Source of the DNA: a virus
DNA: 33,687 bases
Reading direction: 5' to 3' (one strand)
IMG/VR virus record: IMGVR_UViG_3300019093_000036
Location: 1 to 33,687 of that record
Each line of letters opens with the position of its first letter. Position 1 is the first letter of the stretch. Below the pieces are notes generated by a model. The model did not search any database, had not been told where the DNA came from, and saw nothing but the letters and a program-made list of their open reading frames with translations. The position numbers and the translations under genes are program-made. Below, piece after piece: positions 5,600 through 11,064 of the stretch.

Positions 5600-5899
5600 A
5601 TGATTAATACTCTGTTTGGGCCTACCGTAGAGTGGATTAGGAGTGATTATGAGTCCAATCGTTTTCGGTTTATTATGGAGTTGGTTGCTTGGGCTATTAG
5701 TATTGGGTGTGCTATTACGATGGCTGTCACAGTACCGTCCCCTCCCTTTATTATTATGTACCCTCTGTGGATTACTGGTTGTGCTATCTATGCCTGGGCT
5801 GCTTGGACTCGCCGTTCATTTGGTATGCTGGCTAACTACCTCTTGCTTGTCACCATTGATTCCACAGGCCTGGTAAGGTTATTGCTAAATATACATTGA
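5600..5899 (+). CDS. Small conserved phage membrane protein
   Basis: 99 residues with about three hydrophobic segments: roughly 26-46 (ELVAWAISIGCAITMAVTV), 50-70 (PFIIMYPLWITGCAIYAWAAW) and 76-96 (GMLANYLLLVTIDSTGLVRLL). The N-terminus (about 1-24) is polar and probably cytoplasmic. I recall near-identical proteins next to dsbA and gene 43 in T4-like cyanophages, with no assigned function. The WITGCAIYAWAAWTR segment is vaguely reminiscent of the PnuC transporter fold, but it is far too short to be a full transporter. It starts two bases after the dsbA stop; an AAGGATG inside the dsbA end can serve as ribosome-binding site. A second hydrophobic ORF in another frame of the same region is treated as a shadow. 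Confidence 0.7.
   Translation: MINTLFGPTVEWIRSDYESNRFRFIMELVAWAISIGCAITMAVTVPSPPFIIMYPLWITGCAIYAWAAWTRRSFGMLANYLLLVTIDSTGLVRLLLNIH
5884..5893 (+). promoter_or_regulatory. Possible T4-type late promoter (GCTAAATATA)
   Basis: GCTAAATATA lies at the end of the membrane protein gene, upstream of the polymerase leader. It resembles the T4/cyanophage late promoter core TATAAATA / CTAAATA. The identical 10-mer occurs at 20338-20347, again just upstream of a gene. No good -35/-10 pair was found for the polymerase gene, so this may be its promoter. Confidence 0.35.
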
Positions 5900-5908
5900 G
5901 TAAGGTTA

Positions 5909-5926
5909 GATCAGCCACAAATGATC
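5909..5926 (+). promoter_or_regulatory. Polymerase-leader hairpin 1 (5-bp stem, 8-nt loop GCCACAAA)
   Basis: GATCA (5909-5913), loop GCCACAAA (5914-5921), TGATC (5922-5926). The loop is identical to that of the second hairpin downstream while the stem differs at four of five pairs, all compensated. A 5-bp stem with an 8-nt loop is also the geometry of the T4 gene 43 translational operator (established for T4; the loop sequence here is different). Confidence 0.65.
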
Positions 5927-5935
5927 GTTAAGGTA

Positions 5936-5962
5936 TTTGAGAGCCACAAATCTCAAAAGGAG
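5936..5962 (+). promoter_or_regulatory. Polymerase-leader hairpin 2 abutting the Shine-Dalgarno
   Basis: TTTGAGA (5936-5942), loop GCCACAAA (5943-5950), TCTCAAA (5951-5957), followed at once by the Shine-Dalgarno AAGGAG (5957-5962) and ATG at 5970. A protein bound to this hairpin would cover the ribosome-binding site, as T4 gp43 does on its own mRNA. The repressor identity is inferred. Confidence 0.7.
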
Positions 5963-5969
5963 AAAAATT

Positions 5970-8642
5970 ATGAGTTATATTGATGCCCGCTGGGATCGTG
6001 ACCGAGACATTGTTCAGGTTGTCGAAAGAGATCCAAAAAAAGGTCGTATCTATCAAGAATACGCCGCCAGATACATTTTCTATTATCCAGATGCTCGAGG
6101 AAAATATCGCAGCATTCATAACGAACCGTTGAATCGTGTAACGGCTAAAAGTTTTAAAGAATTTACCAAAGAACAAAAGATTCACAGCAATCATAAACTT
6201 TATGAAAGCGACATGAATCCTGTATTCCGTTGCCTTGAAGAAAACTACCTGGATAGAGATGCTCCAAAACTAAATGTAGCATTTTTCGATATCGAAGTAG
6301 ACTTTGATCCAGAACGAGGGTACGCAAGTCCCGATGATGCTTTTATGCCTATCACTGCCATTGCTGTACACTTACAATGGTTGGATACACTGGTATGCTT
6401 GGCCGTTCCACCCAAAACACTCACCATGTCAGAGGCACAAGAACAGGTTAAAGAATTCCCTAACACTATCTTATTTGAAACGGAATACGAAATGTTAGAT
6501 ACATTTCTTAATCTTATCGAAGACGCAGATGTGCTCAGTGGATGGAACAGTGAAGGATTTGATATACCATATACGGTAAATAGAGTCACCAAGGTACTAA
6601 GCAAAGAAGATACACGAAGGTTTTGTCTGTGGGATCAAATGCCCAAGAAACGCGAATACGAAAAGTATGGAAAAACTGCTGTTACATATGATCTAGTTGG
6701 TCGTGTACATTTGGATTCGTTGGAACTTTATAGGAAATATACATATGAAGAGCGTCACACCTACCGATTGGATGCCATTGGAGAAATGGAAATTGGAGAA
6801 AATAAAACCGTCTACGAAGGATCTCTGGACCAACTATACAACAACGACTTCCGCAAATTCATCGAATACAACAGGCAAGACTGCGCACTTCTGGACAAAC
6901 TCGACAAAAAACTCAAGTTCCTGGATCTAGCCAATACAATTGCACATGAAAATACCGTACTGCTACAGACCACTATGGGGGCGGTGGCTGTAACAGAACA
7001 GGCCATTGTCAACGAAGCACATCGTCGCGGAATGATGGTGCCCAGCAGACCCAGACGCAGCGAAGATGGCACCGATACACAAGCAGCAGGTGCTTATGTA
7101 GCTTATCCTAAAAAAGGTCTCCATGACTGGATTGGCAGTATGGACATTAACAGTCTATATCCATCAGTGATTCGCGCACTCAATATGGGACCAGAAACCA
7201 TTGTTGGTCAATTACGCATGGATTATACCCGAGAAGAGATTGACATTAAAATGGCTAAAGGTTCCAGTTTTGCCTCAGCATGGGAGGGTAAATTTGGAAC
7301 CAATGAATACGAATTTGTCATGGCACAAGATCGCAGTCATGAAATTGTAGTCGATTGGGAAGATGGCAGAAATGAAATCATGAGCGGTGCTCAGGTCTAT
7401 GAAATGGTTTTCAATAGCGGTAAACCATGGATGCTTTCGGCCAATGGCACAATCTTCACACACGAATTTGAAGGTATTATTCCCGGCCTGCTGAAACGTT
7501 GGTATGCCGAGCGTAAAGAAATGCAGGCCAAACTGAAAGACTCTATTAAAGCGGAGAATAAAATTGAAGAAGAATACTGGGACAAACGACAATTGGTTAA
7601 GAAAATTAATCTTAACAGTCTATATGGTGCTATTCTTAATGCTGGTTGTAGGTTCTTTGATAATCGCATCGGTCAGTCTACCACCCTTACCGGGCGTTCA
7701 ATTGCCCGACACATGGCCGGTAAGATCAACGAAGTTATAACCGGCGACTACAACCATGTAGGCAAGGCTGTTATCTATGGCGACACAGACAGTGCTTACT
7801 TTACAGCTTATATCGCACTGAAGAACGAAATCGCCAAAGGTGAGATTGCTTGGGACAAGGACACCGTGGTCAAACTGTATGATACTGTAGCAGATGAGGT
7901 AAATTCTACATTTGCAGATTTCATGTTAGAAGCATTTCATTGTCCTAAATCACGCGGGGAAGTTATCAAAGCCGGTCGAGAAATTGTTGCTATCAAAGGC
8001 CTATTCATTACCAAGAAACGCTATGCAGTTCTTAACTACGACAAAGAAGGCAAGCGACTCGACGTAGAGGGAAAACCTGGCAAGATCAAGGCCATGGGAC
8101 TGGATCTCAAACGCAGTGATACTCCAGAATTCATGCAGGATTTCTTAACTGAGATTTTGACCAAGGTACTGAATGGTGCCCAGGAAAAAGAAATACTAGA
8201 GAGAATCAGCGAATTTAGAACAGACTTTAAAACTCGCCCCGGTTGGGAAAAAGGCAGTCCTAAACGTGCTAACAACATCACCGAATATCAAGCCAAAGAA
8301 GCCAAACAAGGCAAGGCCAATATGCCAGGTCATGTTAGAGCCAGTATTAATTGGAATACTCTTAAACGAATGAATAATGACAAGTATTCTATGAATATCG
8401 TTGATGGTATGAAAGTGATCGTGTGCAAACTCAAAGACAATCCATTAAAATATACCAGTGTGGCATATCCTGTAGATGAACTGCGTTTGCCTAAATGGTT
8501 CCAAGAATTGCCATTTGATCACGGTGAAATGGAAGCCACTATCATCAATAATAAATTAGACAATCTCATTGGGGTTCTGGAATGGGATTTAGATTCAACT
8601 ACACAGAACAATACATTTGGTAATCTTTTTTCATTTGATTGA
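5970..8642 (+). CDS. 43: T4-type family B DNA polymerase
   Basis: 890 residues, close to T4 gp43 (898). The start at 5970 (MSYIDARWDRDRD) is chosen because AAGGAG precedes it; an in-frame ATG at 5937 would fall inside the leader hairpin. All catalytic motifs are visible. The 3'-5' exonuclease has Exo I FFDIEVDF (D107, E109), Exo II SGWNSEGFD (from 190) and Exo III YNRQDC (300-305, D304). The polymerase has motif A DINSLYPSV (D392), motif B KKINLNSLYG (from K544) and motif C YGDTDS (603-608; D605, D607). It should be an active proofreading replicase. Its leader carries two loop-identical hairpins suggesting translational control. The sliding clamp gene follows 56 nt downstream. I see no inserted intron, intein or split, which are common in this gene. 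Confidence 0.96.
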   Translation: MSYIDARWDRDRDIVQVVERDPKKGRIYQEYAARYIFYYPDARGKYRSIHNEPLNRVTAKSFKEFTKEQKIHSNHKLYESDMNPVFRCLEENYLDRDAPKLNVAFFDIEVDFDPERGYASPDDAFMPITAIAVHLQWLDTLVCLAVPPKTLTMSEAQEQVKEFPNTILFETEYEMLDTFLNLIEDADVLSGWNSEGFDIPYTVNRVTKVLSKEDTRRFCLWDQMPKKREYEKYGKTAVTYDLVGRVHLDSLELYRKYTYEERHTYRLDAIGEMEIGENKTVYEGSLDQLYNNDFRKFIEYNRQDCALLDKLDKKLKFLDLANTIAHENTVLLQTTMGAVAVTEQAIVNEAHRRGMMVPSRPRRSEDGTDTQAAGAYVAYPKKGLHDWIGSMDINSLYPSVIRALNMGPETIVGQLRMDYTREEIDIKMAKGSSFASAWEGKFGTNEYEFVMAQDRSHEIVVDWEDGRNEIMSGAQVYEMVFNSGKPWMLSANGTIFTHEFEGIIPGLLKRWYAERKEMQAKLKDSIKAENKIEEEYWDKRQLVKKINLNSLYGAILNAGCRFFDNRIGQSTTLTGRSIARHMAGKINEVITGDYNHVGKAVIYGDTDSAYFTAYIALKNEIAKGEIAWDKDTVVKLYDTVADEVNSTFADFMLEAFHCPKSRGEVIKAGREIVAIKGLFITKKRYAVLNYDKEGKRLDVEGKPGKIKAMGLDLKRSDTPEFMQDFLTEILTKVLNGAQEKEILERISEFRTDFKTRPGWEKGSPKRANNITEYQAKEAKQGKANMPGHVRASINWNTLKRMNNDKYSMNIVDGMKVIVCKLKDNPLKYTSVAYPVDELRLPKWFQELPFDHGEMEATIINNKLDNLIGVLEWDLDSTTQNNTFGNLFSFD

Positions 8643-8698: not shown

Positions 8699-9433
8699 AT
8701 GCTAGACCTACTTAAAGACATCGTTGCACATACTCAGAAACTTGGTTTCTTAAACATTGTTAAAGTTACGGGAACAGACAAGCAAACACTTATCGATTCC
8801 ATGGCAGAAGACCGCACTGTGATCATGTATGCCGAAACTACTGATCCGCAACCAGAAATGATTGGCACATTTGGTATGCCCCAACTGGAAAAACTTCGTT
8901 ATCTAGTAGATGGCAAAGAATATCAACAGGATGCCACCATTGAGGTGGTTCGCGAAACTCGCAACGGAGAATTGGTTCCAGTTGGCCTCCACTTTGAAAA
9001 TGCTGATGGTGATTTTAAAAACGATTACCGTTTTATGAACCAGGACATTATTAACGAGAAACTTAAAACCGTTAAATTCCGTGGTGTTAAATGGGATGTA
9101 GAAGTTGAGCCCACTGTCAGTGCTATTCAGAGATTTCAATTCCAAGCAGGTGCCAATACTGAACATGTTACCTTTTTGGCCAAGGTCGATGGCGATAAAT
9201 TAAAATTTACATTCGGTGATGTTAGCACACACGGCGGAGAATTTATATTTGCCTCCGGTGTTACAGGTAAAATTACCAAGTCCTGGACATGGCCTGTTGC
9301 ATCTGTGCTGGGCATTTTTAAAATCGCCGATGCTAACAATGCTAAGATCAGTTTCAGCAATGAAGGCGCTATGCAGATTACGCTAGACAGCGGCCTGGCT
9401 ACCTACAAATACATTATTCCAGCACAGGCATGA
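8699..9433 (+). CDS. 45: gp45-like sliding clamp
   Basis: 244 residues from the ATG at 8699 (MLDLLKDIVAHTQKL), preceded by AAAGGAA; T4 gp45 has 228. The call rests on clamp-like features rather than strong identity: a beta-rich, acidic protein; FGMPQLEKLRYLVDG in the first half; and a C-terminal half with KLKFTFGDVSTHGGEFIF, a WPVASVLGIFK segment, then KISFSNEGAMQITLDSGLATYKYIIPA, the typical clamp ending. Its position right after gene 43 supports this. Clamps ring DNA and tether the polymerase; in T4, gp45 also activates late transcription. The stop overlaps the next start (ATGA at 9430-9433), so the DNA transglycosylase is translationally coupled to the clamp. Loader genes (44, 62) are not in the window. 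Confidence 0.78.
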   Translation: MLDLLKDIVAHTQKLGFLNIVKVTGTDKQTLIDSMAEDRTVIMYAETTDPQPEMIGTFGMPQLEKLRYLVDGKEYQQDATIEVVRETRNGELVPVGLHFENADGDFKNDYRFMNQDIINEKLKTVKFRGVKWDVEVEPTVSAIQRFQFQAGANTEHVTFLAKVDGDKLKFTFGDVSTHGGEFIFASGVTGKITKSWTWPVASVLGIFKIADANNAKISFSNEGAMQITLDSGLATYKYIIPAQA

Positions 9434-11064
9434 GACCTCCAATTAACCTAACTCCGCTACAAAAGGATTATGCTGTATTTCTTCCAGCAATCAGTTCGTT
9501 CTACAGCACTTATGTAGCCAAGCAACGACTCAGCGAGTATATACCCAAAGAACGTATGCCAGCAGGGTTTGATCGCGGCATCGAAGGCATGAATTTTCTC
9601 AATGCCGAAGAGGGGTATTTTACCTATAAGTACGCTCTTTATTCTGCAGGGCATGCTCAACTGGATCTTAAAAAAGCCCTCACCGACGATTCGATGCTGC
9701 AACAACGAGATCGTGCCAATACCATGATTCTCGGCGACTCAGGCGGATACCAAATTGGTAAAGGTATTCTTAAATTTGACTGGAAAGACTTTGAAGGTAA
9801 GTCAGCCAATAAAACACGAAGTGAAATTGTCAATTGGTTAGAAGCAACAGCAGATTGGTCAATGACACTGGATGTTCCTATTTGGGCTTGTGATAAAAAT
9901 AATCAACCCAGAACCGGATTGACCAGTCCAGATGATTGCTTAACAAAAACTCGATTCAATAATGAATTTTTCATAAAGAACCGGCAGGGTAAAACAAAAT
10001 ACCTAAATGTTCTACAGGGCAGCGATTGGCTTAGCGCAGAAACATGGTATGAGGGTGTTAAAGAATACAGCGACAATAACATCTATGGCGACCAGGCTTT
10101 TGAAGGCTGGGCGTTTGGCGGTGTCAATATGAGCAAGATGGACATGACACTGAAACGCATAATGATCCTGCGCGAAGAAGGATTACTCAAAGGAAAAGAT
10201 TGGATACACTTTCTCGGAACTGCTCAACTAGACTGGGCTTGCTATTTAACTTCAATTCAACGTCGAATCAGGGAACATATCAATGAAAACCTTACCATAT
10301 CTTTTGACTGCGCCTCACCGTTTGTCGCAACTGCACACGGACTTACCTACACCAATGCAATCCACACGTCCAAAAAGTTCAGTGTTGTTATGGACAAGGC
10401 ACCAGATAACAAAGCACTTGCAGAATCCACAATCCCATTCCCATTTGAATCGGAGATCGGCCGCAGGTTAGTAATGGGAGACATTGCCTACTATGATCTA
10501 GGTCAACGCAAAACTGATGCCGAATTAAACGGTGTTAAATTTAATCATTTAGATCCAAAGCACTATCATGTTGCCCCCCGTGTTAACAAACTAGGCAAAA
10601 TTCCAACCAATACCAGTTGGGATAGTTTTGCTTACGCACTTTATATGGGGCATAATGTCTACTGCCATATTGCTGCTGTTCAACGAGCCAATCAATTGGC
10701 CGATATTGAATGTACCAAATACAAACCAGATTGGCGTGAATGGAATAAACTCAATGCTAAAAACCTCAATAGCAATCAATTTAGTGAGTGGGTTCCACGA
10801 AGCATCCTGTATTTTGATCGATTCGTTGAAGAACTTTTTGCAACTAAAAATCTCACAGAGGCTATGGATATGCTTGAACAACCCAATGCTAAAGCATTTT
10901 TAACTAGCATTGCAGGAGCAAGAAACACTACAAATGGTCAAAGCGACAACATGTTTGGTAGTCTTTTTTCAGTTGAAGAAGTTACACGAGCAGATGATAT
11001 TTGGTTGGAAAACCCCGAAGATGAAAAACTTCGAGCACTAGAAGATGATCTCAAATCTGAGTAA
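9430..11064 (+). CDS. dpdA: TGT/DpdA-like DNA 7-deazaguanine transglycosylase
   Basis: 544 residues, in the tRNA-guanine transglycosylase superfamily. The substrate-pocket residues of TGT are recognisable in order: DSGGYQ (D103; TGT DSGGFQ, D102), D148 (TLDVPIW; TGT D156), Q196 (NVLQGSD; TGT VQG, Q203), FGGVNM (G230-G231; TGT G230), and the nucleophile motif SFDCASPF (D293; TGT FDCVMPTR, D280). The canonical CxCxxC...H zinc site of TGT is not visible. Phage TGT paralogues with this pattern are DpdA enzymes, which replace guanine in DNA with preQ0-type 7-deazaguanines and protect against restriction. A tRNA role is less likely in a replication operon with QueD- and QueE-like genes nearby. The start overlaps the clamp stop (ATGA). 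Confidence 0.8.
   Translation: MRPPINLTPLQKDYAVFLPAISSFYSTYVAKQRLSEYIPKERMPAGFDRGIEGMNFLNAEEGYFTYKYALYSAGHAQLDLKKALTDDSMLQQRDRANTMILGDSGGYQIGKGILKFDWKDFEGKSANKTRSEIVNWLEATADWSMTLDVPIWACDKNNQPRTGLTSPDDCLTKTRFNNEFFIKNRQGKTKYLNVLQGSDWLSAETWYEGVKEYSDNNIYGDQAFEGWAFGGVNMSKMDMTLKRIMILREEGLLKGKDWIHFLGTAQLDWACYLTSIQRRIREHINENLTISFDCASPFVATAHGLTYTNAIHTSKKFSVVMDKAPDNKALAESTIPFPFESEIGRRLVMGDIAYYDLGQRKTDAELNGVKFNHLDPKHYHVAPRVNKLGKIPTNTSWDSFAYALYMGHNVYCHIAAVQRANQLADIECTKYKPDWREWNKLNAKNLNSNQFSEWVPRSILYFDRFVEELFATKNLTEAMDMLEQPNAKAFLTSIAGARNTTNGQSDNMFGSLFSVEEVTRADDIWLENPEDEKLRALEDDLKSE

Follow-up and report, generated by a model that had tools for sequence, protein, structure and literature searches.

The autogenous control of phage DNA polymerases, described in a small number of coliphages, is a textbook case of RNA-protein regulation, and T4 gp43 is said to have been a target in the first SELEX (systematic evolution of ligands by exponential enrichment) experiment. 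The gp43 polymerases of T4 and RB69 bind the leader of gene 43 and repress their own translation, RB49 gp43 has a related site, and no evidence for a pseudoknot has been reported at the T4 gene 43 site (PMC3014915). T4 gp32 represses its own translation via a pseudoknot on which it nucleates and to which UAAA repeats are joined downstream (PMC535899). Here we analyse the leader of gene 43 in IMG/VR record IMGVR_UViG_3300019093_000036, positions 1 to 33,687 (the whole stretch of DNA analysed, hereafter "the window"). Two tandem units precede the start codon, and comparison of related sequences makes it almost certain that each would fold as a compact H-type pseudoknot. On balance we think it likely that together they form an autogenous translational operator for gp43, resembling that of T4 and RB69 in its working and that of gene 32 in its build, and doubled.

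The two hairpins reported in an initial annotation of the window are present where it placed them, as GATCA[GCCACAAA]TGATC at 5909-5926 and TTTGAGA[GCCACAAA]TCTCAAA at 5936-5957, and the sequence AGCCACAAAT has exactly two copies in the whole window. As that annotation held, four of the five comparable stem pairs (numbered from the loop) differ between the hairpins with pairing kept, and the second stem reaches the Shine-Dalgarno sequence, base 5957 being common to both. The stems it delimited stand, but the start of the element moves to 5904, since the GGT triplets upstream of each stem (5904-5906 and 5932-5934) had been overlooked. The gene 43 product matches Pfam DNA_pol_B and exo1 as well as PHROG 262 (E 1e-194), and its nearest solved structures are of RB69 gp43. 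When the leader is folded as a single sequence its stability is no different from that of shuffles (z = -0.15); such folding is thus uninformative, and the case for the structure rests on comparison.

The initial annotation had already compared the element to the gp43 operator of T4 and RB69. This comparison is borne out by the gene and by the location of the site, which adjoins the ribosome-binding site in the leader of gene 43 as in T4, RB69 and RB49 (PMC3014915), and the element is specific to gene 43. The distance to the start codon is similar (the T4 loop begins 31 nt upstream, that of unit 2 here 27 nt), and both systems have a short stem and an 8-nt apparent loop, with stems that vary while the loop is kept; in T4 and RB69 the stems AGCCT/GGGCT and AGAC/GTCT, respectively, carry the common loop AATAACTC. 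The T4/RB69 operator has one unit, whereas there are two here, and its loop is AAUAACUC, in contrast to GCCAYAAA. The loop-centre motif is UAAC in T4 and RB69 and UAAA in RB49, and here YAAA occupies loop positions 5-8. Unlike the T4 site, the units here are pseudoknotted via loop bases 1-3. The tandem element probably works like the T4/RB69 gp43 operator.

Conservation and pairing of the units

A protein-similarity query with the window gp43 retrieved 80 related loci with polymerases 81-97% identical, and the 69 distinct gene 43 leaders among them form the basis of the leader comparison; all relatives compared are metagenomic contigs. Two units are recognisable in 69/69 leaders at a nearly constant unit-to-unit spacing of 28-31 nt, and both stems have loops of exactly 8 nt in 64 of the 69, while in the other five (L016, L020, L033, L043/L044, and L080) one of the units either has a loop of 9 nt or is closed by a mismatch. 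The sequence of the hairpin stem, S2, takes many forms (GATCA/TGATC, GCGA/TCGC, GTCG/CGAC, GCGG/CCGC, TTTGTCT/AGACAAA, TTGCCG/CGGTAA, and others, also CCG). Across 65 distinct units, 455/455 S2 cells pair (79% in shuffles) and 108 cells carry two-sided changes (34 in shuffles), with covariation in all four inner pairs. Aligned as the initial annotation had suggested, the leaders of gene 43 homologues therefore show a conserved loop and covarying stems, and a relative without the loop and the pairing was not found among the 69 gp43-retrieved leaders.

An RGY triplet (GGU, GGC, or AGU) lies one to a few bases 5' of every S2 stem and is complementary to bases 1-3 of the apparent loop (GCC, ACC, or GCU). 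In a set of 416 candidate units found without any requirement for this pairing, which we call S1, the complementary triplet is present in 415, the lone exception being an unrelated sequence; with shuffled upstream bases the figure is 37%. Among 454 units in 286 distinct leaders the combinations are GGU/GCC (360), GGC/GCC (62), AGU/GCU (20), and GGU/ACC (12), with no pair-breaking combination. As a prospective test, IMG/VR was scanned for GCU loops with the upstream bases unspecified (collection-wide scans covered 2.9 million viral contigs, and statements on them cover the matches listed), and every gp43 leader among the matches carries AGU. When ACY loops carried by the GATC-type stem were sought, most matches were due to chance, and the two distinct gp43 leaders listed are GGT/ACC, as predicted. 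At matches away from gp43, with all loop variants pooled, a complementary triplet stands at the same offsets in 11/98. Mapped onto a phylogeny of 187 gp43 proteins, the G-C/A-U exchanges in S1 amount to 10 independent events, all of them concordant (sign test, p=0.002), and the AGU/GCU double variant occurs naturally in two of the related loci (L052 and L060).

Because loop bases 1-3 pair with the upstream triplet, each unit is best read as an H-type pseudoknot, with an S1 of 3 bp, a first loop (L1) of 1-3 nt, an S2 of 4-7 bp, and a third loop (L3) of 5 nt (N-N-A-A-R; AYAAA-like). S2 and the 3' strand of S1 are contiguous, with 0 bases between them. U.G is the most frequent S1 pair adjoining S2, stacking in S1 alone contributes about -5.8 kcal/mol, and almost every distal unit has a triplet-to-loop spacing of 6-7 nt. 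The evidence for S1 comprises one pair that varies on both sides and one that varies between wobble and Watson-Crick pairing.

Distribution and genomic setting

In the collection-wide scan for the GATC-stem distal unit, every judgeable match listed precedes a gp43 gene; with the shorter GCGA pattern the matches listed are gp43 leaders plus 12 in GC-rich coding-like sequence. At genome scale, the only consensus-like units in contigs of 331, 270, and 195 kb are the two before gene 43, other matches occurring at about the random or control rate and being unlike the consensus. The bare loop octamer is roughly at control level overall in 15 related contigs, and is thus uninformative without the stem.

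In a more distant clade, whose gp43 shares about 64% identity, most leaders have the proximal unit only, and the 3' strand of its S2 is often the CGG of the Shine-Dalgarno sequence CGGAG; another conserved hairpin occupies the distal position. In a 364-kb contig of this clade, where S2 is 3 bp and so falls under the scan cut-off, there is no further consensus-like match. This second element of the clade (in L386, L364, and L391, for example) reads GAGTCG, stem, loop ACRTTAC or CGTAA, stem, CATG, and lies directly 3' of a TATAAATA box; its stems covary, and the full arrangement occurs at that one site only in the 364-kb contig. At five loci an unrelated gene, overlapping the gp43 start by ATGA, separates the unit from gp43, and the unit stays at the head; one of the encoded proteins is weakly sulfotransferase-like, under the Pfam cut-off. 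The unit is absent from the leaders of the named relatives Phosso, 121Q, Atu_ph07, MIJ3, Vibrio 2.275.O, SCTP-2, GAP32, and XacN1, and from those of S-SM2 and phiN3; named phages whose polymerases are 32-50% identical have no such unit, nor do T4 and RB69. No gp43 relative was found in cellular genomes, which hence give no clue to the host.

The units also resemble the gene 32 operator of T4, T2, and RB69, likewise an H-type pseudoknot that lies upstream of the Shine-Dalgarno sequence, close to where the leader begins. The T2 gene 32 pseudoknot has a single-nucleotide L1 opposite a 7-bp S2, and so does unit 2 here. The gene is different, however, and presumably so is the protein, and the units differ in their 3-bp S1, in being duplicated, and in having no cooperative UUAAA/UAAA array. 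The gene 32 leaders of these phages are without the unit. Leaders of their gp32 homologues (L408, L409; L405-L407, L410, L411) carry repeated AGGCAAC or AGGCATA near the Shine-Dalgarno sequence, in the roughly 110 nt that precede the gp32 start codon; these repeats are unlike the T4 gene 32 pseudoknot and possibly represent the gp32 autoregulation site in these phages.

No Rfam 15 family reaches its gathering threshold for the leader. Taken as far as the start codon, the leader shows sub-threshold likenesses to DUF2815 RNA (RF03084; 17.5 bits against a gathering threshold of 41.2, E 0.45) and freshwater-2 RNA (RF02980; 14.3 bits against 49.9, E 4.3), but these are far too low, with chance E-values, to support an assignment. 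As the element departs from defining features of both the gp43 operator and the gene 32 operator and matches no Rfam family, we file it with none of them. The initial annotation had suggested a duplicated operator with a new loop in this phage, presumably undescribed. The tandem arrangement holds, and we found no published description of a tandem pseudoknot element in the open-access literature; it is not peculiar to this phage, however, but general in a large clade.

Upstream of the units, a TAAATA, TAATTA, or TAAGTA box is present in 160/174 leaders with two units, the usual distance from box to loop 1 being 21-22 nt, and aligned leaders have a conserved GAG 5 nt 3' of the box. Gene 43 thus appears to use a T4-type late promoter. 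The predicted transcript start is probably at about 5897-5898, some 6 nt before unit 1, so that the leader would comprise little beyond the two pseudoknots and the Shine-Dalgarno sequence. In three related contigs (G001, G005, and G014) the T4-type late promoter sequence NATAAATA is rarer overall than expected, but the 120 nt preceding open reading frames (ORFs) are strongly enriched in it.

Two other ORFs of the window are recorded here. A 98-aa ORF at 5301-5597 matches PHROG 639 (transcriptional regulator), and a similarly placed gene is annotated as DsbA or DNA-binding in MIJ3 and Phosso; the ORF is a neighbour shared with jumbo-phage gene 43. A 544-aa ORF at 9430-11064, downstream of the presumed clamp gene, has no Pfam or PHROG match.

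Table 1. Positions of the leader features and gene 43 in the window, and of the genes inserted at related loci
Feature	Coordinates	Strand	Basis or remark
TAAATA box, T4-late-promoter-like	5886-5891	+	conserved box in leaders
Unit 1 (distal), whole	5904-5926
Unit 1 S1 5' strand, GGU	5904-5906	+	pairs with 5914-5916; covaries with loop bases 1-3
Unit 1 L1, 2 nt	5907-5908	+	spacing
Unit 1 S2, GATCA/TGATC	5909-5926	+	5909-5913 with 5922-5926; covariation
Unit 1 S1 3' strand, GCC	5914-5916	+	inside unit 1 S2
Unit 1 L3, ACAAA	5917-5921	+	inside unit 1 S2
Unit 2 (proximal), whole	5932-5957
Unit 2 S1 5' strand, GGU	5932-5934	+	pairs with 5943-5945; covariation
Unit 2 L1, single A opposite 7-bp S2	5935	+
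Unit 2 S2, TTTGAGA/TCTCAAA	5936-5957	+	5936-5942 with 5951-5957; covariation
Unit 2 S1 3' strand, GCC	5943-5945	+	inside unit 2 S2
Unit 2 L3, ACAAA	5946-5950	+	inside unit 2 S2
Shine-Dalgarno AAGGAG of gene 43	5957-5962	+	first base is last base of unit 2 stem
Gene 43, family B DNA polymerase, 890 aa, presumed ligand	5970-8642	+	ATG at 5970
Intervening genes at related loci	L118:3222-3863; L160:6254-6922 (minus strand); L366:1426-2001; L398:1207-2001; L399		family unclear

Proposed mode of action and candidate ligands

Comparison supports the fold of the RNA, the presence of two copies, their confinement to gene 43, and the place where they lie; gp43 as the ligand, repression as the outcome, and cooperativity between the two units are what we infer. 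The position at the ribosome-binding site, the restriction to a single gene, and the maintained identity of S1 and L3 while S2 is free suggest that a ligand would read the S1/L3 face and block initiation. In the proposed mechanism S1 would be stacked directly on the variable S2, with the A-rich five-base strand (AYAAA) crossing S1. When in excess over DNA primer ends, gp43 would bind the conserved S1/L3 face of the units and stabilise the proximal pseudoknot, so that binding of the 30S subunit would be blocked and the polymerase would repress its own translation, while the distal copy may add affinity or cooperativity.

Several observations weigh against this operator. In T4 and RB69 the gp43 operator is a simple hairpin whose loop is different (AAUAACUC), and gp43 here would therefore have to recognise another RNA shape. 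S1 has just three pairs, one of them invariant, and its exchanges were counted on the gp43 tree, relative to which leaders may have recombined. Nine clade-2 leaders, in scattered lineages, are without the unit, and the only gp43 alignment column that tracks unit loss (431) is unconvincing.

It is unlikely, though the best placed of the alternatives together with a ligand-free element, that another replication or RNA-binding protein of the phage binds the pseudoknots, such as a gp32-like single-stranded DNA-binding protein or a RegA-like repressor. The pseudoknot on which T4 gp32 nucleates has the same topology and is followed by UAAA repeats (PMC535899), these phages encode gp32 homologues, and L3 is often AUAAA; yet in the contigs scanned the units stand before gene 43 only, not before gene 32 or elsewhere, and the gene 32 leaders have the AGGCAAC/AGGCATA motif instead. 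We give a similarly small chance to a structure that sets a fixed translation level with no ligand, as a 5' mRNA stabiliser or a ribosome-standby or timing structure. A transcript starting just before unit 1 would suit it, as 5'-terminal structures can protect mRNA, and clade 2 puts a different 5' hairpin in place of the distal unit, but the element is not used at other genes in the contigs scanned, and base identity kept in S1 and L3 beside a free stem suggests recognition rather than mere stability.

A tandem riboswitch, in which the pseudoknots would bind a small molecule (a nucleotide or deazapurine) and control translation without protein, is less probable still. Riboswitches such as preQ1-I use small H-type pseudoknots with A-rich loops, and this likeness, the tandem layout, and the clustering of conserved bases at S1 and L3 speak for it; against it, one gene only is served, genes of nucleotide metabolism in the scanned contigs being without a copy, no Rfam riboswitch matches, and a 3-bp S1 with an unconserved S2 leaves little room for a pocket.

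The initial annotation had proposed two simple hairpins recognised via the full 8-nt loop, for which the strong conservation of the loop and the T4/RB69 precedent speak, but covariation of loop bases 1-3 with the upstream triplet makes this highly improbable. The conserved loop and compensated stems from which it argued for loop-specific RNA recognition hold; the whole loop is not displayed, its first three bases being paired. We see next to no chance that the units act only as DNA dyads, as protein-binding inverted repeats or GATC methylation sites, even though the two arms of S2 form an inverted repeat and GATC is part of one common stem, because the stem sequence is free (GCGA, GTCG, CCG, and others), the commonest S1 junction pair is U.G, S1 makes a pseudoknot, which a simple DNA palindrome could not form, the S1 exchanges contradict it, and the units always lie in the sense orientation before gene 43.

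It is quite possible, though we would stop short of calling it probable, that a large group of uncultured T4-like jumbo phages has a new family of phage regulatory RNAs, the first in which a DNA polymerase operator consists of two pseudoknots in tandem, and that one gp43 binds each unit, so that autogenous control would be cooperative and switch steeply. The element would be an independent, strongly conserved solution to polymerase autoregulation in freshwater jumbo phages, a group that is widespread. Its hundreds of natural variants amount to a ready-made mutational scan, and the single and double forms, natural losses, and gene insertions may reveal how a polymerase gains, doubles, and loses an RNA target. 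The finding opens the question of whether polymerases of the gp43 family recognise pseudoknots, as gp32 does.
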